A DNA stretch of 64,000 nt from Amphirosellinia nigrospora (Eukaryota > Ascomycota > Sordariomycetes > Xylariales > Xylariaceae), in assembly GCA_004123355.1 (NCBI GenBank), contig SCHM01000001.1, positions 10,798,193-10,862,192 on the forward strand, given 5' to 3'. A model generated the notes under the pieces. It had not been told where the DNA came from and did no database searches. It saw only the letters and a list, made by a program, of their open reading frames with translations. The position numbers and the translations under genes were made by a program. This document shows, piece by piece, positions 18,674 to 55,351 of this stretch (its first letter is position 1; each line of letters opens with the position of its first letter).

Positions 18674-21639
18674 ATGGTTAGACACCAGTATAATAGACTC
18701 GTCCAGGATGAGACCAGTACTTTAAATCACAGCAGCCCCGATCATCCGGGGCCCCTCGCCGACGTCGCCAGCCGCGAAGTCGACCTCCGCACCTTGGGTA
18801 ATACTGGCCGAACCGCTCACAACATCATACACAGCCCGGCGCCTTACACGCCGATACTCGGGCGCTGACTCCGAACGATCCGAGACAACATGGAACTTCG
18901 CCGCCGACTCGGCCGTCTGGGAATGTGGTCGGCTGGAAAGACTTACCAAAGAAGGATCAGCTGCTTGTCATTACGCTTGCTCGGCTTAGCGAGCCTCTAA
19001 CACAGACTTCCCTTCAGGTATACTGACCCGGTTGATAACCACGATGCTTATCGTCATCTGTCCTCGTCGCTAATGGGTTGTATAGGCATACATGTTTTAT
19101 CAACTAAGATGGTGTCAGTAACATGAGAGTCGTCTTTACTTCGTGCAGTTGTGCCGGGAATAGATTCCCACTGGCTCAGACCGTGGCCCGGAAGCTCCGT
19201 ATGCCGCAGAGCAGGCTGTTGTGAATAAGACTAACTCTTGGCTACAGTCGACCCTACACTTCCTGATGCCGTTATCTCTGGCCAGGCGGGCATCCTGCAT
19301 GCTAGCTTCACAGCTGCTCAGTTCTTAACTGCTATGTTTGGGGTCGCATAGCCGACTCGAAACTTGCTGGCCGCAAGACTGTCATCTTGATTGGCCTCTT
19401 TGGTACCCGTTAGTCTGTCACTCGCTTCGTATAACCCGGCGTAACACCATATTTATAAGCGTTTAGTGGTATCGTGCCTCGGTTTTGGATTTTCTACAAC
19501 CTTTTACCAGGCCTTATTCTTCAGGTCGCTCGGTGGTATTAGTGCGTAATTTTCGGAGTGATTTTCTTCCTGCTTTGGCACCTTCCGGAGCACGACGTTT
19601 ATTTCTGGGATGTGATAACATCTTGAAACTTCTGACACCCTCGCAATTCTCGCTATAAACAGCAATAACTGACTCCGAGTGTTGCAGCGAACGGTAATAT
19701 TGGCGTCATGAGGACCATGTACGTATCGCTCGCTGACGAACATTATGCTTGTGCTAATCTGACGTTGTATAGGATTAGTGAGATCATCCGGGAGAAGAAG
19801 TAAGCGAACTTAGACAAGGATATAAAATAGGTATCTAATTCATCTGAAGATACCAGTCTAGGGCATTTTTAATCCTTCCCATGACTTTCAATATCGGAGT
19901 CATTATCGGTCCTAGTGAGTAATGGTCGGAACTGTTTTGTTCTTATTTCGGCAACTTTTAGAGCGTGAGGTTTCCTCTGATGACAAGAGAGAGTCTGGAA
20001 ACTTCTAAGACTTCCAAAAATAGCGCTTTAAATGGTGATAATTGACTCAGAGTTTTGTAGTCCTTGGCGGGCTTCTTTCCGACCCGGCTGGGTCGTTCCC
20101 TGGAGCTTTTGGAAATGTGGAGTTTTTCAAAAGATTCCCATACGCAACGCCGAATATCCTAAGCACCGTGTTCCTGGGCACTGCATTTTTGCTATGTTGG
20201 TTAATGCTAGAAGAGGTAGGTCCCCTTCCTGCTTCATCTCTAGCGAATCGTTGCTGATGTTTCAGACCCACGATTCTCTTCAAGATAGTCGTGACATAGG
20301 CATTATCATCGGCCAGAAACTGAAGAGATTGTTCCGGCGAAATGATAACTCCATAGCTTACGTCCCGCTTCATTCTCGCGATACGAGTGTTAGTAGTGTC
20401 CCCTCAGCTGACTACGAGCTCTCCCCCGGCACCCCGTGCAGCTCGACCGAGGCAGTACCGAAGAAAGCAGCCATCCGTCCACGATACAGGAACCGGCTAT
20501 CGTTCCGGCGCCTCTTCACTCGAAATGTGTCATTTACCCTCGTTTCGCATTTTTTTCTCGCGTTTCATGTTGGCACTTTCAATTCACTGTGGTTTGTCTT
20601 CCTTTCGACATCGGTATACAACCCGGCAGACCCGGACCCGCCGGGCTTCGTGCCACACCTTCCTTTCCGGTTCACGGGCGGCCTCGGTAAGGATCTCTCG
20701 GGGTAACTTTGTTGTTTTGATAGATTCCAGGACTTTTCTGGGCCATGATCGTGTCGAAAGATTTGAGGCCCCTCATAAATCATGTTGAAAACGGCGGTAA
20801 CTGACTCCGAGTATTCAGGTCTCCCCCCGGTCCGTAGGGTTCGCAACGGCGTTCCTGGGAGTGATGATTCGATGCAGCTATTCCTGTACCCATGGCTGTC
20901 AGCGCGGCTTGGGACATTACGCTCGTGGCGCATTTTTCTCTTCCTCTTCCCTATCACGTATCTCGTCATGCCGTTTTTGTCCATTGTGCCTAGCACGACT
21001 GCCCCTCCGAGTGAGAAGACGGGACTAGCGGTTTGGGTGGCCATTGGGGCTGTGCTTCTCGGTGAGCAATTTCTGGGACCAATTTCTTCTTGTTTGGTTA
21101 TTTTTAGAGCATGAGATATCTCTTTTGGGATAAGGGAGTGCCAGAGGTTTCTCAAGCTCTCACAGCCCACCCTCTAAATAGCGATAACTAACACCAATTG
21201 TTGCAGTACAAGTTTCCGCTCGCACTTTTGCACTACCTGCACAAACTATTCTTGTAAATAATTGCACACCACATCCGAGTGTTCTGGGCACGGTTCACGG
21301 GTTGGGGCAAAGCGCGAGCAGTCTCGCGAGGACGATTGGTCCTATTGCTGGCGGGTGGCTGTACGGGCTTGGACTAAGCCACGGCTTTGTCGCGGAGTCT
21401 TTTGGGGTCTGGCTGGCATGGCGGTTGCCGGAGTAGTAGTTAGTTTCTGGGTAAACGAAGGTGATGGTCACGAGATATGGTTAGAAGGTGACGATGAAGA
21501 AGACGACAGACAATCGGGGGCAACAAATGCGCCCATGATAAGCCGGAGTATAGAACCAGATAAAGATGAAGGTGTATACCTGGGTGCAATACCTTACGCA
21601 AATACTGGTTCACTCAAGGATAACGGAAGCGGCTTGTAA
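18674..21639 (+). CDS. Major facilitator superfamily transporter (fungal YCR023C-like group)
   Basis: Membrane transporter of unknown substrate. Eleven exons: 18674-19017, 19086-19117, 19248-19408, 19467-19541, 19688-19718, 19773-19799, 19850-19914, 20061-20215, 20266-20686, 20819-21061, 21207-21639. Family blocks in order: WKDLPKKDQLLVITLARLSEPL (N-terminal cytoplasm and TM1), SGQAGILHASFTAAQFLTAMF (TM2), GRIADSKLAGRKTVILIGL (the MFS loop 2-3 signature), SLGGI-TNGNIGVMRTMISEIIREKK (TM4 to loop), FNIGVIIGPILGG (TM5), then a long central loop, and TM7-12 with LFLYPWLSARLG and TIGPIAGGWLYGLGLSHGF. The C-terminus is acidic (EGDDEEDD). Several points need restored bases: one in exon 1, one at the exon 2/3 join, T-run 19337-19339, C-run 20823-20828, one near 20872 and an A at 21419; all phases then agree. 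Four introns belong to a repeated intron family (separate entries). Confidence 0.82.
19542..19687 (+). repeat. Introner-like intron copy 1 (146 nt, in MFS gene)
   Basis: This spliceosomal intron runs from gtgcgtaattttcggagt to a 3' end with ataactgactccgagtgttgcag-type sequence (branch-like ctgac, acceptor cag). It matches the intron at 53587-53732 on the other strand over its full 146 nt without gaps, with about 19 mismatches by my count. The host genes are unrelated, so the match reflects copying of the intron. Confidence 0.8.
19915..20060 (+). repeat. Introner-like intron copy 2 (146 nt, in MFS gene)
   Basis: Also exactly 146 nt. It shares the layout with copy 1: a gtgagtaatggtcgga start, a ttcggcaacttttagagcgtgaggttt-like middle, a ctggaaacttct block and an end reading tgataattgactcagag then ttttgtag. 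It is clearly more diverged than copies 1 and 6 are from each other. Confidence 0.65.
20687..20818 (+). repeat. Probable introner-like intron copy 3 (132 nt, in MFS gene)
   Basis: Shorter and more diverged. The 3' end (gcggtaactgactccgagt then attcag) matches copy 1 closely; the interior similarity (ttctgggccatgatcgtgtc, gatttgaggcccctca) is weaker. Included because the acceptor-proximal block is shared. Confidence 0.5.
21062..21206 (+). repeat. Introner-like intron copy 4 (145 nt, in MFS gene)
   Basis: 145 nt. Shared blocks with copies 1 and 2: gtgagcaatttctggga at the start, tttttagagcatgagatatc in the middle, ttttgggataagggagtgcc, and tagcgataactaacacc near the acceptor ttgcag. Confidence 0.6.
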
Positions 21640-22372
21640 GTGTTACGTGAGAGGGTGCGGTGGGGGGAACAGCATCTAGAGGGAAGACGATGACCCACAA
21701 TAGATCTGGGGGTCTTTGGGATAGAAAAGTGGAACTCTGTCTTCAATTTTGATGTTACCTAGGTAGGTAGGTACAGTATAAAGTAGGTCACGTACACGTA
21801 CAACAGGTATGTGAGTCTACTAAATATTTGAAGTGTTAGTAGTTACACTTACCTAAAGGGTAAGGTACCGTCGCATTATACGTGACACTTTTATAATATC
21901 GATCCCTGCTGCACAAGCCGTTGTCGGTACCTAGGTACACATGTGCCCATGCCAATCTGCACTACCCCCTGCTACCCACTGCTACCCACTTAGTGAGCTG
22001 TCCAGGCTTGGGTTGCAGAGCGGTAACCTTAATTCGCTGGTGTCAGGAGACGAGAGAGGGAGACAATACACAGCTGTCTAAGTCCAACCCATTTCGCTGC
22101 GCAACGACGGCGCCGAACAAGGCCATTCCGACACCTCGTATGCTCCAATTCAACTTACAATAACACTTGAAACCCGCCATTGTTCTATGAGTAGACCTTA
22201 GAGCTTGCCTCGCGCCCGAGAACTGACAAGCCGCCTTGCGCGTGCCAGCTCCCTCGAGTCCGCACCACCTCACCTCGCCCTCAACCTCGCCTCGCCTCGC
22301 CTTCACACCGCCAGCACTGGGCACGGCTGCCATCGACGACTCCTCTCGACATTTCAATCATTGTGATATAGT
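21640..22372. other. Intergenic region with TAGGTA repeat
   Basis: Between two plus-strand genes. A CCTAGGTAGGTAGGTA tetranucleotide run lies near 21759-21775. The 3' half is C-rich with pyrimidine stretches, as in a promoter and 5' leader. A possible splice acceptor (gatatag) just before 22372 would allow a 5' exon of the phospholipase gene to lie here, but I could not identify it. Confidence 0.4.
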
Positions 22373-25300
22373 TTGCCTTCTCGTCTTCGCTCTCGCACCG
22401 AGGCCCCCGCCGATACTAGTCCTCCCGGCAAGGTATCTATTGATGTATTGAGCACGGACAGCACTACCAACAACGACGACGAGGACGACTCGCCAATTAT
22501 ACCCGAACCGGTCTTTTACCCGTTTACTCCCTGTCGACGACGACGGCCCCCTCTATCGGCATCGCCTTGGAACGATGCCCCCCATCGATCGCGATGACTC
22601 CGTTTCGCCCATGAACAGGAGTACTGGCATTTCCTCCCCATTGCAAGCCTCCGTATCGCATCCTTCCGCTGATTCTGCCCCGCGCGTGAGCGGAACACCG
22701 TTCCGGTCCGCGACTTGCCCATATCCAGCTCTCAGATTCTCGAGCTAGCTCAACAGCTAAATCTTGGGGAGCTGCACGACTATTCGAACGCAGACGAGCC
22801 AGAATCACGCGAGCAGTCTTATACACCCCGCCATGCCTCGAATCCAGCGACGCCAGGCCGCCTGTCTCCTATTCAACTACCTTCACCAGGTCGAACCAAG
22901 CTCGTACCTCCTCTGCAAGACCAGGACGAGAATGTCCTCGACGAGCCCGTCTCTCCTGGTCGGCGAAGTGTGCATTTCACAGGTACCGACACCGTGCTAG
23001 AGGCCCCTCGCCTGCCACACTCTCGACAGGCCTCGTGGGATGATGCAGATATGACGAACCGCTCACGCAGCGAGAGATGGATGTCCAGATTGAAGTCGAC
23101 GCTTAGCACTACGGGCGTGCAGCCGCCGAGAGCGCCGGGTATGGTGGAGCCCGGTGCCGCCTCGGCCGGTAGCTCACCCGTGTTGAATAGGTCCTACCAT
23201 ATGGCCGACACCTTGGATGAAGAACAGGGTAGTGATGCCGATGTGGAGGAGAGTGGCGATGAGGCACAGCAGAGAGAAGCCCCGAAGATGAAGAAGAGGA
23301 AAAGAATGAAGCGGCGTCTGAAGCAGCTCGATGTCTTCACCGCACCCAATACTCCCCGCCAGCCAGATGAGATCGGATCGCCGAGCATGGGTGACCGCTT
23401 CCAAACGCTCGTGAGGCGATCCACTATGCCCGATGCTGCTGATCACCGGGCTGGTTTATCTGAAGGGGAGGGTCGAGACCAACTAGCGAGGAGGCCCGCC
23501 TGGCGACGTGGGAATTCCTGGATAGGTGCCCAACGAAATGGCAATGTCACCGCCGAGGAAGCCGAGAGTCCCCAGCCTCGATTCCCCGGCCACCGCCGGC
23601 GAATCTCTGAAATGTTCGGGGCCGGTACTGCTTCTGATGGGGAGGCTCTCGGTCCACCGAGGAGGCCCTTCTTGAGCTCCGAGAGAGCTGCCACTTTCGG
23701 CGCCCAGAGGTGGAAACAGGTCAAGCATACACTGAAGATGTTGGGCAAGAAGAAGACCGACCAGTTTGACTTCTACAAGTCGGCCGAGCTTATTTCCGAG
23801 CTACGTGCTGTCACACCAGCTGTCGTGATTCTTGCTAGCATGCTGCAGCGGGACGAACATGGTAATAAGCGTATCCCGGTTCTACTCGAGCAGCTGAAGA
23901 TACGCGTTACCGATAGCTTCCCTGAGGATAGCACGAGTGAGAGGCATTCTTTGTTCACTATCTCCCTGGAGTATGGTAACGGAAATAGCCGGATGACCTG
24001 GACAGTCACTCGTAGCGTCCGAGAGATTTGGAACATGCATTGGAAGTATCGACTGTCGCTAAAAAATGATCGATCATTACCAACCGGCCCAAACCAGCGT
24101 GGCCGCCCCAAGCAACCTGCTTTCCCCAGAAAGGCGTTCCCATACCTCAGATCGTATCAGAACCGGGACGAGTCTGACGAGGATGAGAGAACACAAGGCC
24201 CTAGAGCGGACGACACTGCGGCCGAAGGAACCGCAGCCGAAGGGACTGCTGGAGAGGGAACCGCAGCGGAGGCTACAGCCAGTGACATTGATAGGAGACC
24301 TAACGCAGGCAGAAAAAAGTCTCGTATGAATAACTTTCTGCCACGTCGACAATCTTCTGGCTTAGGAGAGGGTCGTGAAGGCTCTGGGCTCAACCCTCAG
24401 AATGCGGCTGCTGCACAAAGGCGGTTCATCGAAAAGCAACGCAGAACCCTAGAAAAATATCTCCAAGACATGATACACTGGCTTATGTTCCGACCAGACA
24501 GCAATCGACTCTGCAAATTTCTGGAGTTGTCTGCTCTTGGTGTGCGATTGGCGGCAGAAGGCAACTTTCATGGAAAAGAGTGTTATTTGCATATTCAGTC
24601 TACGAAGGGCATTGATTTCAGGCGAGTGCTGACGCCCCAAAAAGTAATATCAAGGCATTCTCGAAAATGGTTTCTGGTCCGCCAGAATTATATCGCCGTC
24701 GTCGAGTCTCCAGCAACGATGAACATATATGATGTTTACCTAGTTGATCCTCTCTTTCGAGTAGAGTCTAAGAAAAGCAAGCTGAGGCGCTTTGGCAAGC
24801 TCATCAAAGGAACTACGGAGAAGGAGAAGGGTAAAGAGATTGCTCACTATACCGACGAGGACGTGCCTGAAAAACACCATTCACTAAAACTATTCACTGC
24901 GGAGAGAAAAATCAAACTATTCTCTCGCAATCAAACTATCTTGCGGCAATTTGAGCAGTCAGTACTGGATATGCTAAAGCAAACTCAGTGGCATCAGCCT
25001 CATCGATTTGGCAGTTTCGCCCGGTAAGGAGAAACGCGTTTGCCCAGTGGCTGGTTGATGGACGAGACTACATGTGGAATGTTTCGCGTGCCATTAGTAT
25101 GGCGCAGGACGTCATCTATATCCATGACTGGTGGTTGAGCCCAGAGCTTTATATGCGTCGACCAGCGTGTATTAGTCAGAAATGGCGGCTTGATCGCTTG
25201 CTGCAGAGAAAAGCGAGGGAAGGTGTGAAGGTTTTTGTCATTGTCTACCGTAATGTCGAACAAGCGATCCCGATAGACTCGGAGTATACTAAGTTTTCCC

Positions 25301-28061
25301 TTCTGAACCTACACGACAATATCATGGTCCTGAGGTCGCCGAACCAATTGAAAAAGAACCAATTCTTTTATGCCCATCACGAGAAATTGTGTATTGTGGA
25401 TCACGACGTGGCTTTCATTGGCGGCATCGACTTATGCTTTGGTCGATGGATAACCCGCAACACCCAATTAATGACGATCGGCCCACAGGCATGGAACCTG
25501 ATCACGATGTTCCTCGGGATGGTGAACATTGCCAGCTATTCCCTGGAAAGGACTACTCAAATCCTCGAGTATTGGACTTCTTCAAGCTGGATGAACCTTA
25601 CGCCGAGATGTATGATAGGAGTAAAATACCGCGAATGCCGTGGCACGACATCTCGATGCAGGTTACTGGACAACCAGCAAGAGACCTCACGCGGCATTTT
25701 GTACAGCGGTGGAACTACCTTCGACGTGAGCGAAAACCTACACGACCTACGCCCTTCCTACTCCCTCCGCCAGACGCCAATGAATCAGATCTCGCTGGTC
25801 TCGGCTTGTCCGGTACCTGTGAGGTCCAAATGCTGCGTTCAGCAGGTGACTGGTCCCTTGGCTTCCCTAAAGATGTTAGAGAACACAGTATCCAGACTGC
25901 GTATGTCAAGCTTATCGAGGAGTCTGAACACTTTGTATATATGGAGAACCAATTTTTCATCACAAGCACCGAAACCCTAAATACAAAGGTTGTTAACCAA
26001 ATAGGAGATGCCCTCGTCGAGCGTATACTAAGGGCTCACCGAAACGATGAGGAGTGGCGATGTTGCATTCTGATTCCACTCATGCCTGGTTTCCAAAATA
26101 CCGTGGACCAGGCTGAGGGAAGCAGTGTGAGGCTAATTATGCAATTTCAATATCGAAGTATATGCCGAGGTCCTCATTCCATATTTGGACGTCTCGAGGC
26201 GGCAGGAATCAACCCTGAGGATTACATTTCCTTCTTTAGTCTGCGGACTTATGGTCACATGGGCAAAAAGAACGCGCTGGTAACCGAGCAACTTTATATC
26301 CATGCGAAGACTATCGTGGTGGATGACAGAGTTGCTCTCATTGGATCCGCAAATATCAACGAAAGGTCTCTTCTAGGCAACCGAGACTCTGAAACCGCCT
26401 GCATTGTGCGGGATACGGATATGACGTGGTCTACAATGGGGGGCGAACCCTACCGCGTTGGGCGGTTTGCTCACACCCTTCGAATGAGGCTCATGCGAGA
26501 ACATCTAGGTTTGGATGTGGATGCAATCACTGAGGACGATAGAAATGCGGATTTGAGTGCTGCGACCCAATTCGAAACCGAGATGGATCAAATGTACGAT
26601 GACGATTATGAATATCCGAACGCAGAAAGCTCAGCTCAAGCTCGACCCAACAAGCAGCGTCCCCAGGCAAACCCTTATCCTACTAGAAGCTTCAATCATG
26701 AGACTCAAGATCACGAAAATTCAAGACCTTCGTCATCTTCGTCCGCTGCCTCTGGCTCGTCAAAAGTCAAATCTCCTAAACGGGACCCTCAGGCCAGCCA
26801 CATCAAAGACGTGGAAGGCTACGGGGCAGATCACTGGAAAGATGCACAAGAAAAAGGGCAAGACCTAGGACGCGACTCGGCCGTTCTCAATGGCCGCGAG
26901 GTTGTCCTCTATCGGTCTGGCCAACCAGCGAAACCCCCAACCGACTCCGCACCCAATGGCTCGAACGAGACCATCGCTCCCAAAGAAAGAGGCCAAACCT
27001 CTGACAAAGGGAACAATGGGCTCCCACCTGCTACTTCCAATGGACTGAGCCAGTTGCCAATTGGCGCACAAAATACTGTTCTTCCAGTTGTTGATGATAG
27101 TGACATCGGAGGACCGGCCGTTCGTCTCGACGATTCCGGACGGCCGAGCTCCGAGTCTTCAAATCCGCTACTCACCGATATCGTAGCAGCAAAAATCGAC
27201 AAGGATTGTATGCGCGACCCACTCCTTCCTGCGTTTTGGGATGACATCTGGACCAGGGTGGCAAGGAACAACACCGTTCTGTACCGTCGGGTATTTCGAT
27301 GCATGCCAGATAGCGAAGTGTCCACGTGGAAGGATTATCATGAATACGACGAATATGCCCAAAGGTTTTCAGACAGCATGTTTAGCGACAAGGCTGAGCC
27401 TGATGGAACGAAATCCCAAGTAACCGAGATTAATGGCGCCGCAGCCAGTATTGCTGGCCCGGCTATTGCATCAGCTGGTCCAGCAATTGTGGAGAAAATG
27501 CTCATTGAGAAAGTAACCACAGGACATGAAAATGATTCCAAGGCCCGTGATACAAACGGGGGCTTAGAGACAGTAAATGAGAAAACGGAATTGTCCAGCT
27601 TGGATCAGTCAGGAGACGGGGCAAGACGACATTAATCTCGAAACGGAGAAGGTCAATACTAAGCAGTCGCTAGAGACATCTTCTCCCACCCAACCTACTG
27701 GAAACTTTCCATTCCCGACTTTAGAAGAACAACCAGAAGGCATGCATCTACAAACGCATAACGACAAGAAGCAAGATCGACGAACAACATTCTCAACGTC
27801 CGAAAAGTCAGCGCCGGGGCCGAACGGCGAGAGCACTATATACAATCAAAACTCGACGAAGCGTCGCCGACGAGCTACTACTAAAGGCAGTCGACGTGGG
27901 CCGACCTTTCCATATGATTTGCTGAGTCGCGAAGACGCAGAGGAATGCTGCAGTATGGTACAAGGTCACCTCGTTCAATTTCCATACGACTGGCTAGAAG
28001 CTGAGAAAAGGATAACCACTGGCTCTACCAAGCAGATTTGCTAGCGCCAAAGGAAATCTAG
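22373..28061 (+). CDS. SPO14: Phospholipase D (Spo14/Pld1 type, PX-PH-HKD-HKD)
   Basis: Hydrolyses phosphatidylcholine to phosphatidic acid and choline at membranes. About 1,890 residues in the order: disordered N-terminus (PSRLRSRTEAPAD...); a PX-like domain around 23760-24060 (FDFYKSAELISELRAVTPAV...WNMHWKYRLSLK); an insert; a PH-like domain around 24430-24780 (LCKFLELSALGVRLA...SRKWFLVRQNYIAVVESP); the first HKD motif HHEKLCIVDHD near 25378; the second HAKTIVVDDRVALIGSANIN near 26300; a long disordered linker; and the conserved tail VQGHLVQFPYDWLE ... DNHWLYQADLLAP. Frame discontinuities lie near 22530, 22735, 25020-25022 (C-run), 25448-25449 (G-run), about 27610 and about 28013, with homology continuing across each. 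The open frame at 22373 begins with TTG, so the real ATG is not identified; it may lie in an upstream exon or be affected by an error. Confidence 0.9.
24215..24280 (+). repeat. In-frame pentapeptide-like repeat inside phospholipase D
   Basis: Degenerate 15-nt tandem units encode TAAEG-TAAEG-TAGEG-TAAEA-TA. The repeat sits in the linker between the PX-like and PH-like regions, so it probably only lengthens a disordered segment. Confidence 0.7.
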
Positions 28062-32977: not shown

Positions 32978-34930
32978 TCAAGCCACAAGTGATACGTCTA
33001 AGATGTCCAGTCCATTCTGGAGTTGGCCCTTTGATGGCATGGCCCTTCTGTCATTAACTCGGCCGACTTCGTCATGGCTGGATCTCGGCCCATGCTCGCT
33101 ACGGCCACGACGGTTTCACCCTTACAGTAGTAGGCAACGAACTTGCTCTCTGCCGGGTTACCTTGGAGCACGAGATCATCCCAGCCGTTGACTGTGTTGC
33201 CACAGTAGCGCAACTGCCCTGTTAGAGCACTCCAAAACACGGGCGTGAAGAACTCGGGTTTCGCAGAGGGCTTGATAATGTGCTTCGCAACGCTTCTACC
33301 TTGGTTTTGTGCCACATTCCAGTGCTCAATTCTCGTGTAGTTACCCTGGCCGCCTGGGCCGTGGTACGGGTAGGTTGCGATATCACCGATGGCATAGACG
33401 TCCTTAAGCCCAGTGACGAGGAAGTTCTCGTCCGTTTTCAGTGAACCATCCTGCTCAAGCCGTATTACCTTACTGTCTTTCAGGAATTCGGTCGCTGGGG
33501 CGACGCCAACGCCGAGGATGACTAGATCCGCTTCAAGTTTGGTACCGTCTTTCAGTACTACCGAGCCGACCTTGGATGGGTCGGACGTCGAAGGCTCGGC
33601 CTTGTCGACACTTGCCGACATGTAGAACTTGATGCCTTTCCCTTCGAGACCCTTTTGTAAGCCCGAACCAACTTCCTGACCAAGCACTCTCTCGAGCGGG
33701 ACGCTTTCCATGCCGATGACGGACACGTTATTGTCCGCAGCCGTGGCATTAGCAAGCTCCATACCGATAAAGCTGCTTCCGACAACAACAATCTTTTTGC
33801 CTTTCTCTCCGATAGCATCGACAATCTTCTTGGCGTCATGCAAAGTTCGCAATACGAATATGTTTTCAAGCACCTTGAAGCCCTGCAAGGGAAGGTAACG
33901 GGCGTGCCACCAGTAGCGAGGATCAGCTTGCCATACGTATGCTTTGTTCCGCTCTTCGTTATAATGGACTTGTTGCTAAAATCGACATCGGTGACTTCAT
34001 CTTGTACAAAGTCGATGGAGCCGGATTTGAAGAATTCAGCGTCTCTCCACTGTGCCTTGTTCACATCGGTCAATAAAGCTTTCGAAAGTTTAGTCCGATC
34101 AATGGGCAGGTAGCCCTCTCTGGTTACGACGGTAATGGGCCGGAGAAGCCGCCATCTCTTAGAGCCTCGACGGCGCCAATAGCACCACTGCCACACCCAC
34201 AACTACAACCTTGTCGGCGTCAGAGGTATTGACACCCCCACGGCATCTGATATTAGGCTTTCTTCGTCCAGATTTGATAGCGGCTTCTTCGCCCTTCACG
34301 TAGATGGCACCATCCCGCTCGACCACATCGAAGGCGGTAAGCGCATCTAGGGCCGGCGCATCCTCTACGTCGCCAGTTTTGGCATTGAAACACGCTATTG
34401 GGTAAGGTCTGTTAGCGGGTGAAGTGCTCCTAGCTATGTGAGGAGAAGGCAAACGACGGGTTTAGACTTACCTCCATGCCACGGGCAGACGAGGCGCCCA
34501 GATTTAGTCAGCTATGAGTATAAAAACACGTTAGGAAAGATCTGCATGTCTCAAATCATGGAACTTGCTCGACGGCACGGAATAAGAAGACTAAGGGATA
34601 TGGCACGGGAGGGTTTTAATACGCACCACGCCGTTGACGGGGGGCGCCGTAATGTGTGCACTTGGTGCCGACGGCCTGGATCTGGCCATCGCCAGCATTG
34701 AGGAGCAGGACTTTACCACCCTCGATACCTTCAACCTCAACCTCCTTCTTCTCGCCAGGCTGTAGAGACAGCGAGGACACGTCCTTGAGCTTGTATTCGG
34801 CATGGCTCTGCGCGGTTGCGTGGCAGTAAATGATCTGAGTGACGTTTAGGGCTCGTCAATTGGACCTGGGATACACAAAGATACGGGGTGCTGCTCTGAG
34901 TTGTGAGAAGGCAACCCGGGTTGAATTCAT
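32978..34930 (-). CDS. Rieske-domain AIF-type FAD/NAD(P)-dependent oxidoreductase (AIFM3-like)
   Basis: Flavoprotein of the pyridine nucleotide-disulphide oxidoreductase fold with an N-terminal Rieske 2Fe-2S domain. The Rieske ligands are split over exons: KCTHYGAPPVNGV, then [22 protein letters not shown] (CxH...CxxH). The FAD-binding loop follows (VVVVGGGSGAIGAVEALRDGG), then TREGYLPIDRTKLSK, the NAD-binding loop IVVVGSSFIGMELANATAA, and the FAD-contacting DVYAIGDIATYP near the C-terminus. The stop is at 32978 if the last frame (PSKGQLQNGLDILDVSLVA) is right. A plausible start is ATG 34930: MNSTRVAFSQLRAAPRIF is Arg/Ser-rich and would suit a mitochondrial presequence, but the first splice (gtgtat donor) is weak. 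Missing bases are inferred near 34639-34644 (G-run on plus), 34186, 34128, about 33900 and about 33030. Confidence 0.8.
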
Positions 34931-43346: not shown

Positions 43347-44133
43347 TATCACCATTACCTTCTTAGTAAGAGAGATGGTTATCATAACACCAGTGTACAT
43401 GTAAGCAGCTGCTGATGAGTGAAGGACGGAAAAGTGGGCCGCGACAGATGCTGCTTTGCCCGCCCAGTTGGGAAGCAATAACAAGTGTGAAATCTATCAA
43501 GGACTCAATAGAGAGTGCTTTGTAAATAATTTGTCAATATGATGTAAAGGAAAAAGCTTCAATGTTGATAATCCATGCACATATTCGGAGCCGAATCGCA
43601 AGTTAAGTCAAGAAGAACAAGTCCCAATTATCATATCTCGTGATGGTTGTTGGTTGGACCTCTGTTGGACAGATCATGTATGTGGAGGGCGCAGGGATAA
43701 TCTCCCTTCCCCGGAGGAGTCACCCGGTGGGCAAGGGGGTGAGTTGTGGACTGACTAGCGTAGCCACTAAAATCTAGCTGTATTGCAATAACCATCATTA
43801 TCACCATCACCACCATCTCTTACTAGGTCCAGTATGCTGTAACTTGACAATATCGGGTTTCGGGATATTGCCTATTTTGTAGATCACGATCTACGTATAG
43901 ACCGAGCCATGAAAAAACCAAGCCTTCCAACAGCTATTAGCTAAGAAAAGTGGCGTCAGCTTCATCCCGACAGCATGGACTCTGTCTGCTCTGCTTACTG
44001 CGGTCACCTACGTTGAAAGATATAAATTATCTGACATGTCAACTACTGTCTCACACCAGCTCGCAAGTGAGGAGCAAAGAGAAACGGAAGAGATCGGAAG
44101 AGAGTGAAGATATTGAAGTGAGGGAACGTCAAG
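43347..44133. other. Intergenic region
   Basis: Between two plus-strand genes. A CAC/ATC-rich trinucleotide stretch lies near 43790-43815. No gene seen. Confidence 0.35.
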
Positions 44134-45204
44134 ATGGCTCTCCCATTCGCCCCGCCCGCTTCACTGGACGCCTCGTTCACCATGTCGCGTCCAAAGGAGG
44201 CAGACATTCACACCTTGGCCAGGGTTTATCTGGAATCGTTCGCGACGGACCCGAGCAACACGTACTGGTGGCCGGAGGACCAGGATGCCATGTACGAGTG
44301 GCTGCACGAGCGCATCCGGAAGAAGATGTCGGATCGAAGCGTGCGCCACTTCCAAATCCTCGACGACCAGAAAGACGTCGTCGCCTTCGCCCGTTGGGAT
44401 ATTCCCGAGGGCTATGAGGCGCACTTCGGCGAGTGGGTCCGCTTCGACGATGCTCTCGATGTCTCGCAAGCCGTGGGCGAGGACGGCACGAGCGAGCCGG
44501 CTACGACTGCGCCTGTCGAGGAGGCGACACCCGCAGCTGCGAAGACCATCTCGATACCTCGGGGTGCGGACCCAGACCTTTGTGGGCCTTTCTTTGAGAC
44601 GCTGGCGAGCTTCTCGAAGAAGTGGGATGCTGAAAAGATGTTAGGTATGACCGCCATCCTTTGCTCACTGTTTCTTTCTTTGTTCTCCGTAGCATGTATT
44701 CAAATAATTGTTCTGCCACAGCCAAAACGCTCCTCTACCTTTCTAATCTTACTGCGACTCATCAGTCATCCTTGTTTTGTTAATAAACTAATGTTGACAG
44801 GCCTCTCCCTCCTATGCACCGCGCCAAAATACCATCGCCGCGGCGCCGGCAAGGCACTATTAGTTCCAATGTTGGCAATCGCAGATGCCGTAGGCTGTTA
44901 GTAATTCCCGAAACTATTTTCTTTCTGTCTTGGTATCTTTTTTCGTAAGGACAAGAAAGTGTCTGGAGAGTTCTAAAACCCTCAAAAATCACACCTCAAA
45001 TAGTGATAACTAACTCCTAGTGCTGCAGTGCGGTCGTACTTGGAGGCCACGTCCGCTGGGCGACATCTCTATGAGAAACTAGGTTTTAAGGTGATGGAAA
45101 TCAAGGAGTTCGATGCTACCGCCGCCACAGGCGGAAGGGTGAAAGGACTGAGCACGATCGCTATCATGATCCGAGAGCCACAGCAGAGTGCTCTATCGTT
45201 GTAG
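44134..45204 (+). CDS. GNAT-family N-acetyltransferase
   Basis: Acetyl-CoA-dependent acetyltransferase; substrate unknown. Exons 44134-44644, 44801-44896 and 45029-45204, all phase 1 junctions, 260 residues, no frame break. N-terminal half: MSRPKEADIHTLARVYLESFATDP (beta-1/alpha-1), FQILDDQKDVVAFARWDIPEG (beta-2/3). The acetyl-CoA loop is in exon 2: LLCTAPKYHRRGAGKALLVP (the R/Q-x-x-G-x-G motif as RRGAGK). Exon 3 ends the fold with YLEATSAGRHLYEKLGFKVM. An Ala/Thr/Glu-rich insert (SEPATTAPVEEATPAA) interrupts the domain. Intron 2 (44897-45028) belongs to the repeated intron family also found in the MFS and kinase-like genes. Such GNATs often act on small molecules, but nothing nearby points to one. 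Confidence 0.85.
44897..45028 (+). repeat. Introner-like intron copy 5 (132 nt, in GNAT gene)
   Basis: Starts gttagtaattcccgaaact and ends tagtgataactaactcct then agtgctgcag. It shares with the MFS introns the ctggagagttctaaaaccctc block and the ataactaactc/ataactgactc block before the acceptor. Confidence 0.6.
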
Positions 45205-46704: not shown

Positions 46705-47836
46705 ATGCTTTTCAGCGCGACGCGCTTCTGTCGCATATGGATATGCGTTGCGGCACTAACGCAGAGTACGCGCCCCTCGCTGATCACTCCTAGCGAAAGA
46801 AATTTCACTAACATCAGTTGGTGTAGGCATCTCCCTTGCCAGCCCCATCAGGCAGACCGATGATCATGAAAGTGTTCGTCGAGCTGCGCCCGGATTTGGT
46901 GGCGGTATATGGCTCCGTATCATGCCGCTTGGAGCCTCCATCACCTATGGCTATACTTCTAGCGACGGTAATGGCTACCGTAAGGTTCTTCGCGACCAGA
47001 TTGTCAACTACGGAAATCTTGTCAACATGGTAGGAAGCCGCCGGAACGGCACCATGGAGGACAATGATGTTGAGGGCTGGCCGGGCGACATCATAGACCA
47101 AGTGCATGCCAAAGCCAACGTGGCTGTGCCCAAGGTTAGTATTCCCGAGCATCATTCACTTCCTTTTTAGCCGGTCTTATAGAGCCGGTTTTGCATTTAT
47201 TGTCTTGATATTAAGCCCGCTCCGTTCATGATATTGTTTACTAACTAGTTGGTTGTAGTATAAACCGAACCTCGTTTTGATCAATGCCGGCACGAATGAT
47301 TGCACCGGCAACGTCGATCTCTCGAACGCCGGGAAGCGCTGTGAGTAATCCCCATATGAGTTCTTCCCCTATGTTGTATTCGGCCAGGACTAGGACTCCA
47401 GTTTTCTGTTCCCGACTGAAAATGACCGATGGCCCGTTCGGAAAATATGTACTAACGGAAATTTATAGTGTCGAGCATGATTGACGATGTCTTTAAAGGT
47501 TCATCTCGCGCCACTGTCATCTTGTCGACCCTCCTGGTGAGGTCAGACCCGTCTAAGCAGAAATGCGTCGAAAATCTCAACAGCCAATTCAGAACAGTCG
47601 CCGCTGCTCAGAGGGCAAAAGGCCGCAGGCTTGTGCTTGTTGACATGCAGCCCCCTGCTGGACCAACGACTGCCCAGCTGGTTGATGGCACGCACCCGAC
47701 CGATGCAGGATATGCCAAGATGGCGAGCATATGGTTTAATGGAATCAAGGCGGCCAGTGACGCTGGGTTTCTCCAGGCTAAAGAAGCCATCCCCGGGAAT
47801 CCCGATGGCGTTCCTGACCGAGGTGTTTACAACTAA
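46705..47836 (+). CDS. Secreted SGNH/GDSL-type esterase (CE3-like)
   Basis: Extracellular lipase/acylhydrolase-like enzyme; the closest styles are fungal carbohydrate-esterase family 3 proteins (acetyl xylan deacetylation), but substrate is inference. Exons 46705-46765, 46818-47134, 47259-47340, 47469-47836; introns 52, 124 and 128 nt; 275 residues, no frame break. The first about 20 residues (MLFSATRFCRIWICVAALTQ) plus the next Leu/Ser stretch form a signal peptide. Block I is IMPLGASITYG, with the nucleophile Ser in GASI. Block II lies near the GSRRNG region. Block III is NAGTNDC. Block V is DGTHPTDAGY, with the catalytic Asp and His. The C-terminal segment is short and Pro/Gly-rich. Confidence 0.87.
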
Positions 47837-50222
47837 TATTGCTGTAGATTAGGACATCCGTTGCTGTATATATTTTGTGTTCCATGCGTTTGAGTTTTGC
47901 AGCTTAGCGATGATATTAGCTTTAGCGAGGATACCTTTTAGCTTTCTCTTAATTGGACATTTTTCTCAATAAGCCTGGCATAAGTATAGTGACCTTACTG
48001 CTCCCGGTTATTACTTGCTTAACTACAAGTACGTGTTTAGTTGAAGCGTAGTATATAACCACCACGGTGTATCACAATCTCAATTATGATAATTTAAGTG
48101 ATTTTAGATATTAAGGCACCATTGTGACGGTGTTTCGATTTGATACCGTAATGTTTTAATATAGGGTTGCAGTTCTGGTTCATGACTCAGTTACACCAGA
48201 ATAAGCTAAGAAATAGTGTTGCGGATAATCAGAACATCATGTGTGTCACGACGCCCTATTGTTTATATATGTGCACCTATGTGTTACACGGAGCTCGTTA
48301 AATACTACCCTACGAGGCTGAAGCAGTCGTACGAAGTTCTCATGAGTCTGAATTATTCACCTATAACTGAGATAGATCACCGAGATACACATGCTCCGGC
48401 TACACGAGTCCATGGAGGTCCGCGAAGCTGTAGGAAGGATACGAGAAAGGATTCGAGCATCAAAGGCATGGAATCCTCCTGCCTGGAGAAATAGGGAAGA
48501 TAGATCTCCATGGCACCTTTGGCACGCTAGTTGATTATTACTCAATCGACCTTGTGGCACTATGATTAAAAACCTAGTACCTTTGTTGGAGATTTTGAAA
48601 CACTAATGATAATCCAAGAGCAGATGTTCATCACGACCTTGTGGGGATTATAATGGGACGCTTTCAATTTTAAATCGACAGAAAATTATTTGCTTGCCCA
48701 TGCTTATCAAAATGCCATACCCTTAGCTCCTTTGCCCCAAAAGACATGTGTATATGGCCAAAGATACGAGACTAGCCTACGGCGCAAAGGGTTTTAGACC
48801 CTTTGCGTAACAACAACTATCATATTCTATGTATATGGAGATCCTAATAGTAATGCTTTGATTATTATTACACCGATAAGGATAGATAGTGTAAGCTTCA
48901 TAGCTATTGTAATTCGTTATATCAACATGCCAATCATTCATTTTTGTCCGTGGTCTCCCTGACTCTCTACTATAGCATCTAGTATCCTCAGACCTCGATT
49001 TGCGTCTTATTGCATCGAGGTGGGTTTAAATACAGATAACAACCTAGTTTCTTTTCCAGAGTATCTGCTATTTCTTGTTACATAATAGTCTTGTGACCTG
49101 ACCTCGAGCCCATCATGGGTCACCCGGTAATCATGAGTAAGCTCTCTTGCAAACCTAATGGACTAGGTCTAATTAGTTATCTTGGCATCATATGGCACGA
49201 ACTTTGATAGTAGTAGGGTTAAGGTTTTATCTTCGTTATCTACTTAGGTAATGGACTACTAGCGAGTCCACCTAATAACCTCACAGAAACACACCGGTGC
49301 CGTGGTAGTTGTGGGAGCCGTGGGTTTAGAGTTTAATAGGTCGAGTTCAAGCCAAGTCTAGAATACAGAAGCTCCGCTTATGGAATTCATTCCTCCGGGA
49401 TCGAAATTGCCCTTGTAAAAAGGTAAACCCGAGATGTCCCTGAATAGTGGCTTTTTGGATGATCAATTTATTGTTCAGGCGTGGAAACAAATGAGTTACG
49501 GAAGCTTAGAAACCTCGCCAGGATGGGATTCGATACTTTGCACTCATATCCTAGTCCATCTAGGCCAGCTACGTGATTTTCTCATCCCATCCCTTACAGG
49601 GGACGTGATGTCAAGCATGGCCTCATCATCGCCAAGTACTAGAATATCTGTATTTTGGGTAATCTTTCCAGAGATACCACGGGTCGTCACTTCGGGTACT
49701 TGCACAGCATGTGGCTTGAATGAATGCAATAATTAATGTATCTAACTAGAAGTCCCAAGTTGACAAATGGTATTATAGCTGTGAGATTATATTGTAAATT
49801 TGATCTCGCTGTTGAAAATGTGAAGTTATTCGTGTCTGATTCTCCTCTGCCACAACAGTGGCCGGAAGACATGTTCATCTCCTTGATGTATCTCATTTCG
49901 TGCGACCGGCGCACTATACGTAATGTCGCTGAATGATGCTGAGGGTGGTGGGACGGCCTAACCCAGGATGCCCAACAAGGTAACGATTCGTAAATCACGA
50001 GCCTCGACGGCTTTAGTCATTCTTCAGCTGTACTAGCCAAAGAGTGACAGTTGTAGGTGAAAATCGGATGAGTAGGTTAGCAGCCTGTAATGTGTACCTG
50101 GGCACAGAAAAAAAAAAGTCTAGCCCAAAGAGCCAGATTCCGGTGCTGTCTGCTCCTACTCCCTGGCTGCTTGGGTTTGTGCTCTGTAGGCGCGGCTGAG
50201 ACATGGGTGTTAAAGATATTCC
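47837..50222. other. Gene-poor A+T-rich region
   Basis: No supported gene. Frames such as 49434-49736 lack recognisable protein sequence. The base composition is more A+T-rich than the gene-dense parts, which in ascomycetes can reflect old repeat-induced mutation, but I did not see paired repeats. Confidence 0.4.
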
Positions 50223-50567
50223 TTAGCTTTGTTGTTGGCTGGTATCCGGAACACTCAAATTATCCCAATACCGTTTCCGCGCTCTCGTCGCTACCGGGTT
50301 GTTCCGAAATCGGTCTTGGAAGAAGTTGAAGATGGCGAATTCGTCCCGGGTCATGATATATTCGAACTCGTCTGCCAGGACTCTACCCCAGATGTCTGCG
50401 AGCGCCGACTCGAGCGTGTCGCGGATGGTTCCATGACTTGCAGCTTCCGGGCTGTCTCGTGCAACCTCCAACGCCAGCATCACGTCATTGGTAATGCTGG
50501 TTTTATTTGCGGACTTCCCCAAAGGCTTTACTGGCTGATGATCTGGCTGGTGCTGGGGTAAATTCAT
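50223..50567 (-). CDS. Small conserved fungal protein, unknown function
   Basis: Single-exon frame, 114 residues if it starts at the ATG at 50567 (MNLPQHQP), or 133 if at 50624. The C-terminal two thirds look conserved: LESALADIWGRVLADEFEYIMTRDEFAIFNFFQDRF then ARKRYWDN. I recall a TRDEFAVFNFFQ...RYWDN motif in uncharacterised ascomycete proteins, but not a function. The protein is mostly predicted helix with a Gln/Ser-rich end. The downstream start is preferred because the MNLPQ context resembles a natural N-terminus; this is a weak choice. No intron is needed. Confidence 0.55.
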   Translation of the reverse strand: MNLPQHQPDHQPVKPLGKSANKTSITNDVMLALEVARDSPEAASHGTIRDTLESALADIWGRVLADEFEYIMTRDEFAIFNFFQDRFRNNPVATRARKRYWDNLSVPDTSQQQS

Positions 50568-50624
50568 GATGTCGAGAACGAATGGCAACGGTCTTGTGAA
50601 GCAGGTTAAGCCCATCATCGACAT

Positions 50625-52684
50625 CAGGTCAATTAAGACGAGTACCTAATGAGTTTTGAAAATTTGGCGGGGGGAGAAAGTTGAGGCAGAGCTATGTTGA
50701 CGGCCGATGAGAACTTCGAAGTAGTTCTTAGAAACACTGAGTGAGGTCTTTATGATGGGAATGAATGATCAATGCGTTAGGAGGTAAACGGGTCTTATCC
50801 CACTAAGAGACTGAAGAATGTCGGTTTGTGTAAAGAGAAGATAAACGAAACTCCAAGGGATTTGTTAATGATATATCTGCGATGTATAAACGAGCGTGAA
50901 ATGAACCTAGGCTGAGGGCAGAAGCTTACCATAGCCAAAGCGGTGCAGCTATCACTTTAATAAGCTCTGGGGTTTTATAAACTGTAATTAGATAGTCGGC
51001 TTGGCATCAACTCAAAGCAACATGCAATGATTTAGGTCCACATAGGTTGCTCGATTTACTCTCCGAGCTTCACCCGCTAGACAGGAGTAATTTGAAGGAG
51101 ATTTTTGGCTGTACCGGCTTCCTATAGTTTTAGTAGTGACCGTGTGGTGACTCGCGTATCTTGTCACAAAACCTGTGTGTTGCTCCACTGAGTCATCAGC
51201 TGATCTTTACACCAGTCAGTACGAGTCTTGGTCTTAAAGTTAGGCCCGGTCCGCTCAATACATAAAATATTGGCCCAGGCCTGTGTAGAACGTTAAAGTT
51301 GTCGTCCTATAAACATAGGGGCTCAACGGAGCACCCGCCGCCGTATGGACAAAGGGAGCAATCTCCTCGGCTACTTAGCATATAGGAGGCTATTAAGGAC
51401 ATACCGACGCCACGATCCATGGCCCTGTTGCTAGTACCGGACTGGCGGATATTCTGGCGAGCCACTCCTCGGCGAATTAAACACTCATTAGTACAACCAG
51501 CGAAACCCCGTGACATGTAAAATAACACATTGTGGGACCTACAACACTGATGCAACTTGGAAAGTAACGTGCCCTCCCGTCCCAAATCCTCGGAACTGGG
51601 CCCCAAATACGAAATCGCAGCCGCCTGACACGTGTCGCTACCCGATTCACGTGGGGGCCAAGACATTATTGATCATCGGGAGCCAGAAACTGAGTTTGGA
51701 AATTACAAAAGGTCCGATACGATAGCGCCGTTCACGAACTGAGTCAGGCTGTGTCACTCTTCCTCTACGAGTAATTAAGAGAACCATGATGTTCACGGTA
51801 TCAATTATTATGTGTCAATTCTTATGACAAAAGCTCCTGCGTGGATATCAAAGAACTCCGTTAGGAACCCTGTGACGGGGTAGGTCCTCTATACTTGTTG
51901 TTGCGCGAAGGTCTGCAAAACCACATCCGTAGACGTAACTTGGTCATAAGCATATAATCTCTTTGCTTGTGGCTTCATGGCAAACTCTATTGGGACTGGC
52001 CTCGTAGGGCCGGGGGAGATATATGTCAATAGATACTTATTCACCTGGGGATACGGAATGCCGTTATTGTCCTCGGATGGATGGGGCTTTGGCCTTAACA
52101 ACATGCGCAGATATGCCATTGAATTTTTTGTAGTCTGATGTCTGACTAAAACAAGCCGAACAATGGCCGTTGTGTTATCATGGTGGTGCAATGACACGGA
52201 AGGTTTTGAGTTCGATTAAGTGTAGCCATCGCTCGTTGGCGACTAGGCAGAAAGTGGTTATCCGGGGCCCCTGACACTTTATATGACACATATGATGCGA
52301 TATGACTGAGTCATGGTTGTGAGTAGGTGGGTGTTGTTATGACAGGTGTGGAAAGGAACGCGCGTGGGTAGCGTCATTCACAACTGAAGCAGTAGATCTC
52401 GATCTCGACTATATACTAGGAAGCACTACTCGGTATTGCCTGCCTACTAAAGTAATTGCCCGTGCGCTTATTTTACTTAATCCCAATCGCTTGGTAGTCT
52501 TATGTCATGTTATTTATAGACGGCATTAGTCTACTTATTTCTCCATGCCAAGGTTTACCGTCAAACCTTATTTCTTCCCTAATATGTTCTTCTTATTTTC
52601 TAGAAGGTATATGCAAGTGAAAATATTGTAGGCTTACCCTATTCAAACCGTAGATACTATATTGGGCTGCCGTCTAACTCCCCA

Positions 52685-52715
<31 letters not shown>

Positions 52716-53566
52716 CCATTTTTAAGGAATTTTGTAACGGCCACGGAGAATAGCCGGGCATATTAGGCTTCTACTATCCCTGGAGTAGAGCGCTCCGTTA
52801 TTGGCGTTGAACGGCTGGTGATAGTGCGTCAGCTACCTCGCTGGCGCCTTCATAGGCGACGGCAATTCCCGATAATATCAGTGGTCTGGGCCCGAACATG
52901 AGGGATACGTTCAACAGGCGTCTAATATCGATGTCGGTTGAATACTTGATTGGAGACGTTCAATTTCTCTAGCTTTTGAAAGGAGCGGCCTTTGTTCTTA
53001 ACACCATATTCCACTTACCTGACCATCTGACTTCACCGAGACTGTTCTCCGATTAACGACTTATTCATATATACGAGCGAGATATCTGACTATTCTATAC
53101 GGTTATCATTTATTTGACTTTTATTTAGTCTTGTGGGAACTAGAAATTCATCAAATTGGCACTCTTTATATGAGATCTCTCAGATATTGTATCACACGTA
53201 TTTATATAGGTCTCGGTCTTGGTCTCTATGGAAGCATTCCCGATGTCCGTACTCCGAGACGAAGCCTCTGGGTACGTGGATTTCTCCTACTCCGAAGGAG
53301 ACGATGGAATAAACCTTATAATTTGATCACTTTCAAACCCCTCACACAAACCCTTGTTACACATTGGTTGGGCCTGCAAATTGTACTAATCTACTTGGGT
53401 TTCCCAATAAATTACATCTACTTAACCGAACTAATGGGACAGATGAATAATAATGTTAATGCAAGGTACATATAATGATATTTATGTCAGAATAGTCAAA
53501 TAAAAACTTACGCAATGACCTTGGGCGCTTCCTCAATCACATACCACCCCTTTTTATAGGTCATCA
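50625..53566. other. Gene-poor region with a 28-nt A-run
   Basis: No supported gene. A homopolymer of 28 A lies at about 52688-52715 on the plus strand; it could be a retroposed tail or a slippage product, but no element body was recognised upstream of it. The minus-strand frame 51889-52197 has somewhat protein-like text (VNKYLLTYISPGPTRPVPIEF) that I cannot assign. Confidence 0.4.
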
Positions 53567-55351
53567 CTAATTGTCCGCGTCAAGGACTACAACACTCAGA
53601 GTCAGTTATTGCTGTTTATAGAGTGAATTGTGAGGGTGTCAGAAGCTTCGAGACATCGTCACGTCCCAAAAGGAAACGTCGTGCTCTGAAAGTTGCCAAA
53701 GCAGGAAGAAAATAACTCCGAAAATTACGCACTGTGTTCCTGAACGAACTGCCTGATCTCGTCATCAGACTCATACATTCCTAGAGAATAGCCAGCATAG
53801 CGGTCAGGCGTGGCCCTCGTCATCAAATCCGTGACCGAGAAATCTAGAAGCTCAAGGGAAGGTCTGGTGGCCGGATGTGATAAGCACCACTGGACCAAGG
53901 CTGCAATCTCAGGATCAAGATTCCTGTATTGTGCTGGTGTGAGGTCTGTGTCTTGGGTAAAGAACGTGCGCTGCGTCCCTGCGATCGTGACTGTAACATT
54001 GCCCGGCCTCGGTGTGACAAAAAGCCCCTTAGTGATAAGGACGCGCATTACCTACCAACAAGTCATGTTTGATTAGCGTCAAGTTAGGTATGGGTAACAG
54101 TAGAGACGTCATAATGGGTATAGGGCCTGTCACTTACGCTTCCTATATTCTCTATGTTCTCCGCGACTCCTGAGTTCACACTTTATAAAAGCCGTAGATT
54201 AGTTTATGAAACAGTCTGCCCAACCAGATACTTGACATACCCTGGGGCCTGATCTGGAACAACGGCTCGATCGAAATCAATGAGTTTCAGAATTGGTACA
54301 AGACTATGCCCGCCACCCTCGGGATTAAGACTGCCTATCATGACTAGAGAGAAAAATTGTGAATCAGCGGAACATCAGATGGTACTAGATGCTGGAGAGC
54401 TTCGTACCATTTGCAACGTGCATATCACCATGTATTATTTGTTCTTTCTTCATTCGTTCTTGCATATCGGCTGGTATCTTTTCCTCTTCATGTGGGGCCC
54501 CTGCGCTGCCCTTGGGGGCCATGCCATTGCGATGCAGAAATGGACGACTTAGGTCATTATGTGTTAGACGCGTAGAACCAAGTCGTAGTATCAAGGGTTG
54601 AGAAATAACGTACGACACTGAAAGAACCGTATAAGAATACGATTCGGCAACGGCCGTGGCTGATCCCTGATCCGAAATATAAAATCTCGTAGGGTCCCGG
54701 ATTCGATCCATTCGGTGAAAATGCTCACGCCCGGATCCCCATTAAAGGGTTATAGATGCTGCTGCCGATATGGAATAGCTGCAGGATATGTTGAGCTCCT
54801 CTGAATAACTACATACAAGGAAATTAGTTGATCTATTTGCTCAGCTTTTCCACTAGCTCGACTTTGCCCACTGGAGGCTTGTGCGGAATGAGTACGCTGA
54901 ACCGTAGGACATAAAATAAATGATCATACCTGTAATATACGACGCTCTTCTATTAGATACTGTTGAGTGTTTTCTCGATATGTCCTCTTCACAACAAAAT
55001 ACTGCGACGTCCGATCTCCGTTGGGCTTCAGCCTGATCTTACATGACACGCCAGTAACCCCATTGCTGAGATATCGTTCATACTCATAATGGTCGCTATA
55101 ACGGTCGAAATACCGCTTTATTTTCCCAGCCTCGAATTGAGCAAGCTCTCGCTGTTGCGCGCGTGTTAATCGAGCTGCTATTGGGCGAATATGACGTAAG
55201 ATCGGAGGATACTGCCCCAGTGGCGGACCGTGTCCTGGGGGGGACCTGGACCTGCGCCTGCGCTTCCCGCCCCGCGCCCAGCCTGCATGTTTGGTGGAGG
55301 GTTTCCTCTTTGAGGGTTCGTGAAGATGTTCGTAAGAAATCCCCGCTCCAT
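53567..55351 (-). CDS. Protein kinase-like fold protein
   Basis: Kinase-like fold judged from motifs; substrate and activity unknown. Exon 1 (54930-55351) starts MERGFLTNIFTNP, is Pro/Gly-rich, then has PPILRHIRPIAARLTRAQQRELAQFEAGKI and the N-lobe strand with the likely ATP-binding lysine (YFVVKRTYREN). The middle reads GVSIFTEWIESGTLRDFIFRI (hinge). The catalytic loop is IIHGDMHVAN (HxDxxxxN style, with HGD as in small-molecule kinase-like folds), joined over an intron to VMIGSLNP; the metal-binding segment is LKLIDFDRA (DFD instead of DFG). A C-lobe part follows (DTDLTPAQYRNLDPEIAALVQWCLSHPATRPSLELL). The last intron (53587-53732) is an introner-like element and the last exon is only 20 nt (53567-53586, ILDADN). 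Missing bases are inferred in the G-run (plus) at about 55237-55243 and about 54690-54750. Some middle exons are not resolved. Confidence 0.65.
53587..53732 (-). repeat. Introner-like intron copy 6 (146 nt, in kinase-like gene)
   Basis: Reading on the minus strand it starts gtgcgtaattttcggagt and ends ataactgactctgag then tgttgtag. It is the closest relative of the MFS intron at 19542-19687: same length, no gaps, about 19 differences by eye, mostly transitions. Phase 1 in this gene, as in the MFS gene. Confidence 0.8.

Follow-up and report, generated by a model that had tools for sequence, protein, structure and literature searches.

Six similar introns in three unrelated genes of a 64,000-nt fungal DNA window, probable copies of one multiplying spliceosomal intron

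How do introns in genes that have nothing else in common come to resemble one another from end to end? The origin of new introns is an old open question, fungal introners are among the few places to watch it, and the copying of introns into new genes is a known but rare origin of introns. An earlier note on the stretch of DNA analysed here (64,000 nt, referred to below as the window) had claimed a repeated family of six introns in three unrelated genes. All six are present at the coordinates it gave, with GT...AG ends (Table 1), and the statement that the three hosts are unrelated stands as well, with the refinement that four of the six copies lie in one of them, the gene of a transporter of the major facilitator superfamily (MFS) type.

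Table 1. Positions in the window of the six family introns, their host genes and the short introns of the MFS gene (stem: pairs formed out of 11 in the common register)
Feature	Position	Strand	Length (nt)	Phase	Stem	Remarks
I1	19542..19687	+	146	1	11/11	MFS gene
I2	53587..53732	-	146	1	11/11	third host gene ("kinase-like"), shortly before its stop codon; 87% identity with I1
I3	19915..20060	+	146	1	8/11	MFS gene
I4	21062..21206	+	145	1	8/11	MFS gene
I5	20687..20818	+	132	1	8/11	MFS gene; most divergent copy; duplex of 12 bp in its own register
I6	44897..45028	+	132	1	7/11	within the GNAT domain of the predicted acetyltransferase gene
MFS transporter gene	19240..21550	+				approximate extent of the part read; Pfam MFS_1; holds I1, I3, I5 and I4; several apparent frame breaks
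Short introns of the MFS gene	19409-19466, 19719-19772, 19800-19861, 20216-20265	+	50-62			predicted from the reading frame
GNAT acetyltransferase gene	44122..45200	+				approximate; Pfam Acetyltransf_1; further predicted intron at about 44645-44800
Third host gene	53560..55352	-				approximate; "kinase-like" in the earlier note; no significant Pfam family in two pieces scanned

The six segments are predicted to be spliceosomal introns on the logic of the reading frame. Joining the exons leaves an open frame at all six sites, by which every one of the introns falls in phase 1, and retention of any of the six leads to an in-frame stop within 2 to 18 codons. The site of I5 is the least secure, because its downstream exon seems to break frame after just a few codons. 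Each copy has a motif resembling a branch point (CTGAC, CTAAC or TTGAC), the A of which lies 14-15 nt upstream of the 3' end. By our arithmetic, the chance that six of six introns share a single phase is about 0.004 if phases are equally likely, and fungal intron phases are not exactly equal.

The closest pair, I1 and I2, proved to be as the earlier note described it: both introns are 146 nt long and align ungapped with 19 differences in 146 positions (127/146 identical, 87%). The differences comprise 14 transitions and 5 transversions, for a K2P distance of 0.146, and the two introns are paired in the FastTree tree with support 0.907. The remaining 14 pairs are 55-69% identical over aligned positions. 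The whole window of 64,000 nt was searched on both strands by profile and by covariance model. With the six-intron profile, nhmmer found the six introns, the next match having an E-value of 0.28, and the unfiltered covariance model returned the same six, with the next match at E 0.33. Because a profile matches its own members, leave-one-out profiles were also run; these recovered all six copies, at E-values ranging from 1.8e-9 (I5, at 20687) to 6.6e-38 (I2, at 53587), and the best match outside the family had E 0.036 to 1.7. Of the repeats that a scan of the window listed (21 inverted pairs, and 20 of the 22 direct families), the longest are matches within the family, at 46 nt for direct repeats and 147 and 156 nt for inverted ones, and the non-family repeats among those listed do not exceed 33 nt. 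The sequence motifs by which the family had been characterised in the earlier note turned out to be looser than it claimed: when scanned without gaps, three of the six copies have the exact 5' motif, none the exact middle motif (best 18/19) and two the exact 3' motif, and the copy at 20687 matches all three poorly. By these alignments and searches, the six introns are of common descent. Chance and common splice signals were rejected as sources of the likeness on account of the small leave-one-out E-values and because the four short introns of the MFS gene (50-62 nt), which are unrelated to the family, have no score against it. Scans of viral and prokaryote collections for relatives of the introns or of the host genes gave nothing useful and turned up no fungal orthologue.

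Could the likeness have been inherited along with the genes? Pfam places the MFS and GNAT hosts, as identified before, above its cut-offs. An unbroken spliced piece of the MFS protein matches MFS_1 with E 2e-10 across two of the four family junctions; the piece that contains the junction at 21062 matches it with E 5e-4, which is under the Pfam cut-off. The spliced GNAT protein has a single Acetyltransf_1 match (E 3e-8, residues 158-222), which runs across the I6 junction at residue 203, a position counted by hand. The label "kinase-like" for the third host found no backing, as neither of the two pieces scanned has a significant Pfam family. In BLASTP comparisons the end of this third host has no significant match to the other two hosts (none to one, best E 4.2 to the other); the non-homology of the MFS and GNAT hosts was judged by Pfam only. 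Paralogy of the host genes was rejected on the grounds of their differing Pfam families, exon flanks at background identity and BLASTP results without a significant match. In the terms of the introner survey discussed below, the hosts are not paralogues, and the four MFS copies share a gene and differ in position. Averaged over 15 pairs, the 30 exon bases that flank the introns have an identity of 0.30 on the upstream side and 0.26 on the downstream side, no more than background. Apart from one pair of flanks, the copied unit is the intron alone. The exceptional pair is formed by the first ten exon bases 3' of I3 (20061-20070, + strand) and of I2 (53577-53586, - strand), which are identical at 8 of 10 positions, although the closest relative of I2 is I1; by our arithmetic the chance of such a match is about 0.6% over 15 pairs, and it is unexplained.

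The presence of four of the six copies within 1.7 kb of one gene might be attributed to local tandem duplication in the MFS gene, followed by occasional spread to other genes. The copies in the MFS gene are mutually 55-64% identical (six pairs), compared to 60-69% and 87% for copies across genes (nine pairs). Not being more alike than the cross-gene copies, they look like separate arrivals, and the unrelated short introns that intervene between them were not copied. Tandem duplication seems to us a highly improbable source of the family. The MFS gene (19542-21206, + strand) has the appearance of a favoured target in that it holds four of the six copies, yet these are not each other's closest relatives.

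The junctions between introns and exons bear on the manner of insertion. The search for target-site duplications (TSDs) that the earlier note proposed was run on the six junctions, and no TSD is visible in any of them; the longest match is 2 nt, found in the copy at 20687 only. Nor is there any sign, at any of the six, of a splice site borrowed from the flanking exon. From I1 to I6, the base 5' of the intron is A, A, A, G, G and T, which speaks for no preference for AG|G, and exon position -2 is a pyrimidine in all six. Every copy is in sense orientation within a predicted gene, and no strong match occurs elsewhere in the 64 kb.

These observations are relevant to two further explanations. The introns could be insertions of a DNA transposon, a MITE-like introner of the Huff type, that are spliced out from transcripts, an explanation that overlaps with the introner reading and differs from it in the copying route. 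The near-terminal inverted repeats described below would be in keeping with a transposon, and signs of this kind are found in most non-ascomycete introner families according to the excerpted text of a survey (PMC9860276). The lack of both a TSD and a borrowed exon splice site in six of six copies argues against it, as does the restriction of the six to sense orientation in predicted genes. A transposon of the TSD type is not supported, with 0/6 copies having a TSD, and we regard a DNA transposon as an improbable origin. According to the other explanation, no introns were gained, and older introns were instead made alike by ectopic gene conversion. Conversion would likewise leave no TSD, and it is separable from gain only by way of orthologues. 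However, it requires some homology to start from and would not respect splice sites, whereas here the similarity extends over the full intron and ends at the two splice sites, in introns of similar lengths set between exons of background identity. We therefore consider homogenisation very unlikely.

A structural feature is also predicted for the six introns, developed to different degrees. RNAalifold applied to the six predicts a stem that joins alignment columns 5-16 with columns 134-145, and in which the sequence from donor position 5 onward is paired with the stretch between the branch point and the acceptor. The number of pairs formed by each copy is given in Table 1. The window also supplied 2259 control segments of the GT...AG type. 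In the register of the family, none of these forms 11 pairs and 88 form 8 or more; when the best of 63 near-terminal registers is allowed, 11 pairs are attained by 3 of the 2259. Shuffling of the ends (n=1000) reaches the observed stem 0 times for I1 and I2, 8 times for I5, 65 times for I4, 234 times for I3 and 769 times for I6, and in the same test 13 non-family introns or candidates have p values of 0.157-0.966. If the 3' arm is displaced by 1-3 columns, the paired cells fall from 81.5% to 31-50%. Covariation beyond that of shuffles was not detected in the stem (81.5% paired vs 82.4%, with one compensatory pair), six sequences being too few, and the covariation term of RNAalifold is unfavourable, at +1.03. 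When whole introns are folded, only I1 is unusually stable (z -2.1, with 5/200 shuffles as good); I5 follows with z -1.2, and the values for the other four range from -0.02 to -0.87. In terms of raw duplex energy, the number of controls that are as stable or more is 31 for I1, 205 for I2 and 95 for I5, among the 2259 segments, which are not composition-matched. Overall, the stem is well supported in I1 and I2, fair in I5, and weak or absent in I3, I4 and I6.

A stem of this kind, together with the conserved middle block of the introns, could also be seen as belonging to a conserved functional RNA, such as a snoRNA host or a riboswitch-like element, carried in several introns. The whole window has no Rfam match at gathering thresholds, and the similarity is not confined to the inside of the introns and reaches both splice sites. 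A functional RNA is, in our assessment, an extremely remote explanation.

Among the literature examined, the closest described architecture appears to be that of the repeated Xylariales stwintrons and the introns derived from them, as portrayed in the excerpted texts of PMC8469720 and PMC12403724. In these texts and in that of PMC9024468, likewise excerpted, the Xylariales elements are similar spliceosomal introns in unrelated genes of filamentous ascomycetes, like the present family. Both occupy seamless sites without TSDs; both have an inverted repeat with the 5' arm starting from donor position 5 and the 3' arm located between the branch point and the acceptor; and in both it is the most similar copies that show the strongest symmetry, which divergent copies have lost. 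Multiple copies in one gene are also common to both, two being reported in the excerpts. I1 and I2, the closest pair here, have near-terminal complementary repeats, as do sister stwintrons and cropped sister introns. The present family differs in consisting of single canonical introns of 132-146 nt, whereas the Xylariales examples in the excerpts comprise [D1,2] stwintrons with lengths of 184-207 nt, along with a cropped intron of 93 nt. It also differs in that all of its introns are in phase 1, whereas the Xylariales elements are described there as having no phase bias. A [D1,2] stwintron is made of nested introns and starts with GGT, that is, with a G before the donor, as the same texts define it; this class was rejected for four of the six introns (I1, I2, I3 and I6), which have no leading G.

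Comparison at the level of sequence gave a different picture. The NTIRE-10 sequence of the Xylariales elements is absent from the six introns, where the best matches are 6-8 of 10. The published 10-nt palindrome is matched at 7-8 of 10 positions, with 8 in three of the six, at positions 109, 78 and 8. Because these positions do not correspond, we do not consider the palindrome a common element, despite its passing the loose rule (>7) given in the excerpts of the papers. No match to published sequence was found within the little element sequence that is readable in the texts, the full sets being placed in supplements. As far as can be judged from short published motifs and descriptions, the Xylariales architecture is common to the present family, a link in sequence not being demonstrated.

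The existence of introner-like elements in Cladosporium (Fulvia) fulva and its relatives, invoked in the earlier note, is confirmed by the excerpted text of PMC4457414. The elements of these Dothideomycetes (Fulvia fulva, Dothistroma and Zymoseptoria) are, as here, whole introns repeated in unrelated genes; according to the same excerpts they degrade with age, and pairs in one gene are known. Their copies are described as numbering in the hundreds, with identities of up to 98-99% in active species, compared to 87% for the best pair here, and we liken the two by description. In the excerpted survey (PMC9860276), introners are recognised by similarity that extends to both splice boundaries, location in non-paralogous genes and at least 5 copies, and the present family has boundary-to-boundary similarity, non-paralogous hosts and six copies in 64 kb. 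The survey excerpts describe the ascomycete families as being without terminal inverted repeats (TIRs) or TSDs; the present family has no TSDs either, but it does have a near-terminal inverted repeat in its closest copies. The DNA-transposon introners of algae, with the mechanism as outlined in the excerpts of PMC12403724, have inverted repeats near their ends, as here, and also a TSD and a co-opted splice site, neither of which is seen here.

Three further segments of the window are possible decayed copies of the family and were left out of the count of six. A predicted intron of 124 nt at 47135-47258 (+), in a gene that reads as GDSL lipase-like, bears a faint end-to-end likeness to the family. 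Among 5026 non-family GTNNG...AG segments it holds the first rank (z 4.0), and its mean score is reached by 0/500 and 1/1000 shuffles and its best single score by 37/1000; the covariance model gives it E 0.33 only, over a shorter span. The next intron of the same gene, at 47341-47468 (+) and 128 nt long, begins GTGAGTAAT and is reached by 5/500 shuffles. The third, an intron-like segment at 16981-17131 (+), ranks 7 of 5026 (z 3.2) and contains a 24-nt stretch that is 88% identical to part of I5 in the matching position. Its score is reached by 0/500 shuffles, and in a further set by 31/1000 on the mean and 4/1000 on the best score; it appears as an nhmmer fragment with E 0.28 and is absent from the covariance-model listing.

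Apparent frame changes inside exons were observed in otherwise conserved-looking genes of the window, at 19300-21450, 22673-27635, 32998-34202 and 53560-55352; the genes are the MFS gene, one that reads as phospholipase D-like, an oxidoreductase with FAD-dependent relatives in the PDB, and the third host. Either these are small indel errors of the assembly, or some of the genes are pseudogenes. Given the possibility of assembly indels, single-base differences need careful reading. Elsewhere in the window, part of a GET3 protein (227 aa) is about equally close to two GET3 structures from filamentous fungi (392 and 386 bits), which we take to be those of Aspergillus fumigatus and Chaetomium thermophilum, and it has one archaeal relative in the prokaryote collection, with 27% identity. 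On this evidence the source is placed no more narrowly than among the filamentous ascomycetes. A search of the window for tRNAs was negative.

We consider it very probable that a single spliceosomal intron, an introner or introner-like element, has multiplied in this genome and given rise to the six as its copies. The reason is that introns of non-homologous genes are alike along their full length, up to the splice sites and no further, which is the rule of recognition in the survey (PMC9860276, as excerpted), and the exon flanks are at background; the introner-like reading of the earlier note is supported to this extent. We examined chance, paralogy, a transposon inserted within pre-existing introns and a known intronic RNA, and none of them fits. 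The activity of the family may be old, as there is only one close pair and the others are 55-69% identical.

With regard to the copying mechanism, we favour, with modest confidence, a route through RNA, in which the mobile unit would be the excised intron itself. The stem would keep the two ends of the intron joined after debranching, and the RNA might reach new sites either by reverse splicing into DNA that is being transcribed or by being captured when breaks are repaired. A copy inserted in this way would supply its own splice signals and thereby leave the host protein unchanged, and with later divergence copies could lose the stem and stay spliceable. We regard this route as the likeliest because of the seamless sites, the sense orientation, the lack of TSDs and the end-to-end stem, following the argument of Fekete and colleagues, who in the excerpted text of PMC12403724 propose an RNA intermediate for the Xylariales elements and suggest that the stem may protect the excised intron RNA.

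A more far-reaching proposal, which we put forward as tentative and on balance doubtful, is that these canonical introns make up an introner family not described before, perhaps from a fungus that belongs to none of the groups covered by earlier descriptions, and that the copying of the family would depend on a near-terminal RNA stem that joins the ends, with insertions being kept only in phase 1. If this were true, the terminal stem would be a general requirement for intron copying in ascomycetes and not a peculiarity of the Xylariales stwintrons. Canonical introns that have a terminal stem without nesting would separate the stem from the twin-intron structure as factors in copying, which are tangled in the Xylariales data, and the window supplies a ready profile for a genome-wide search.
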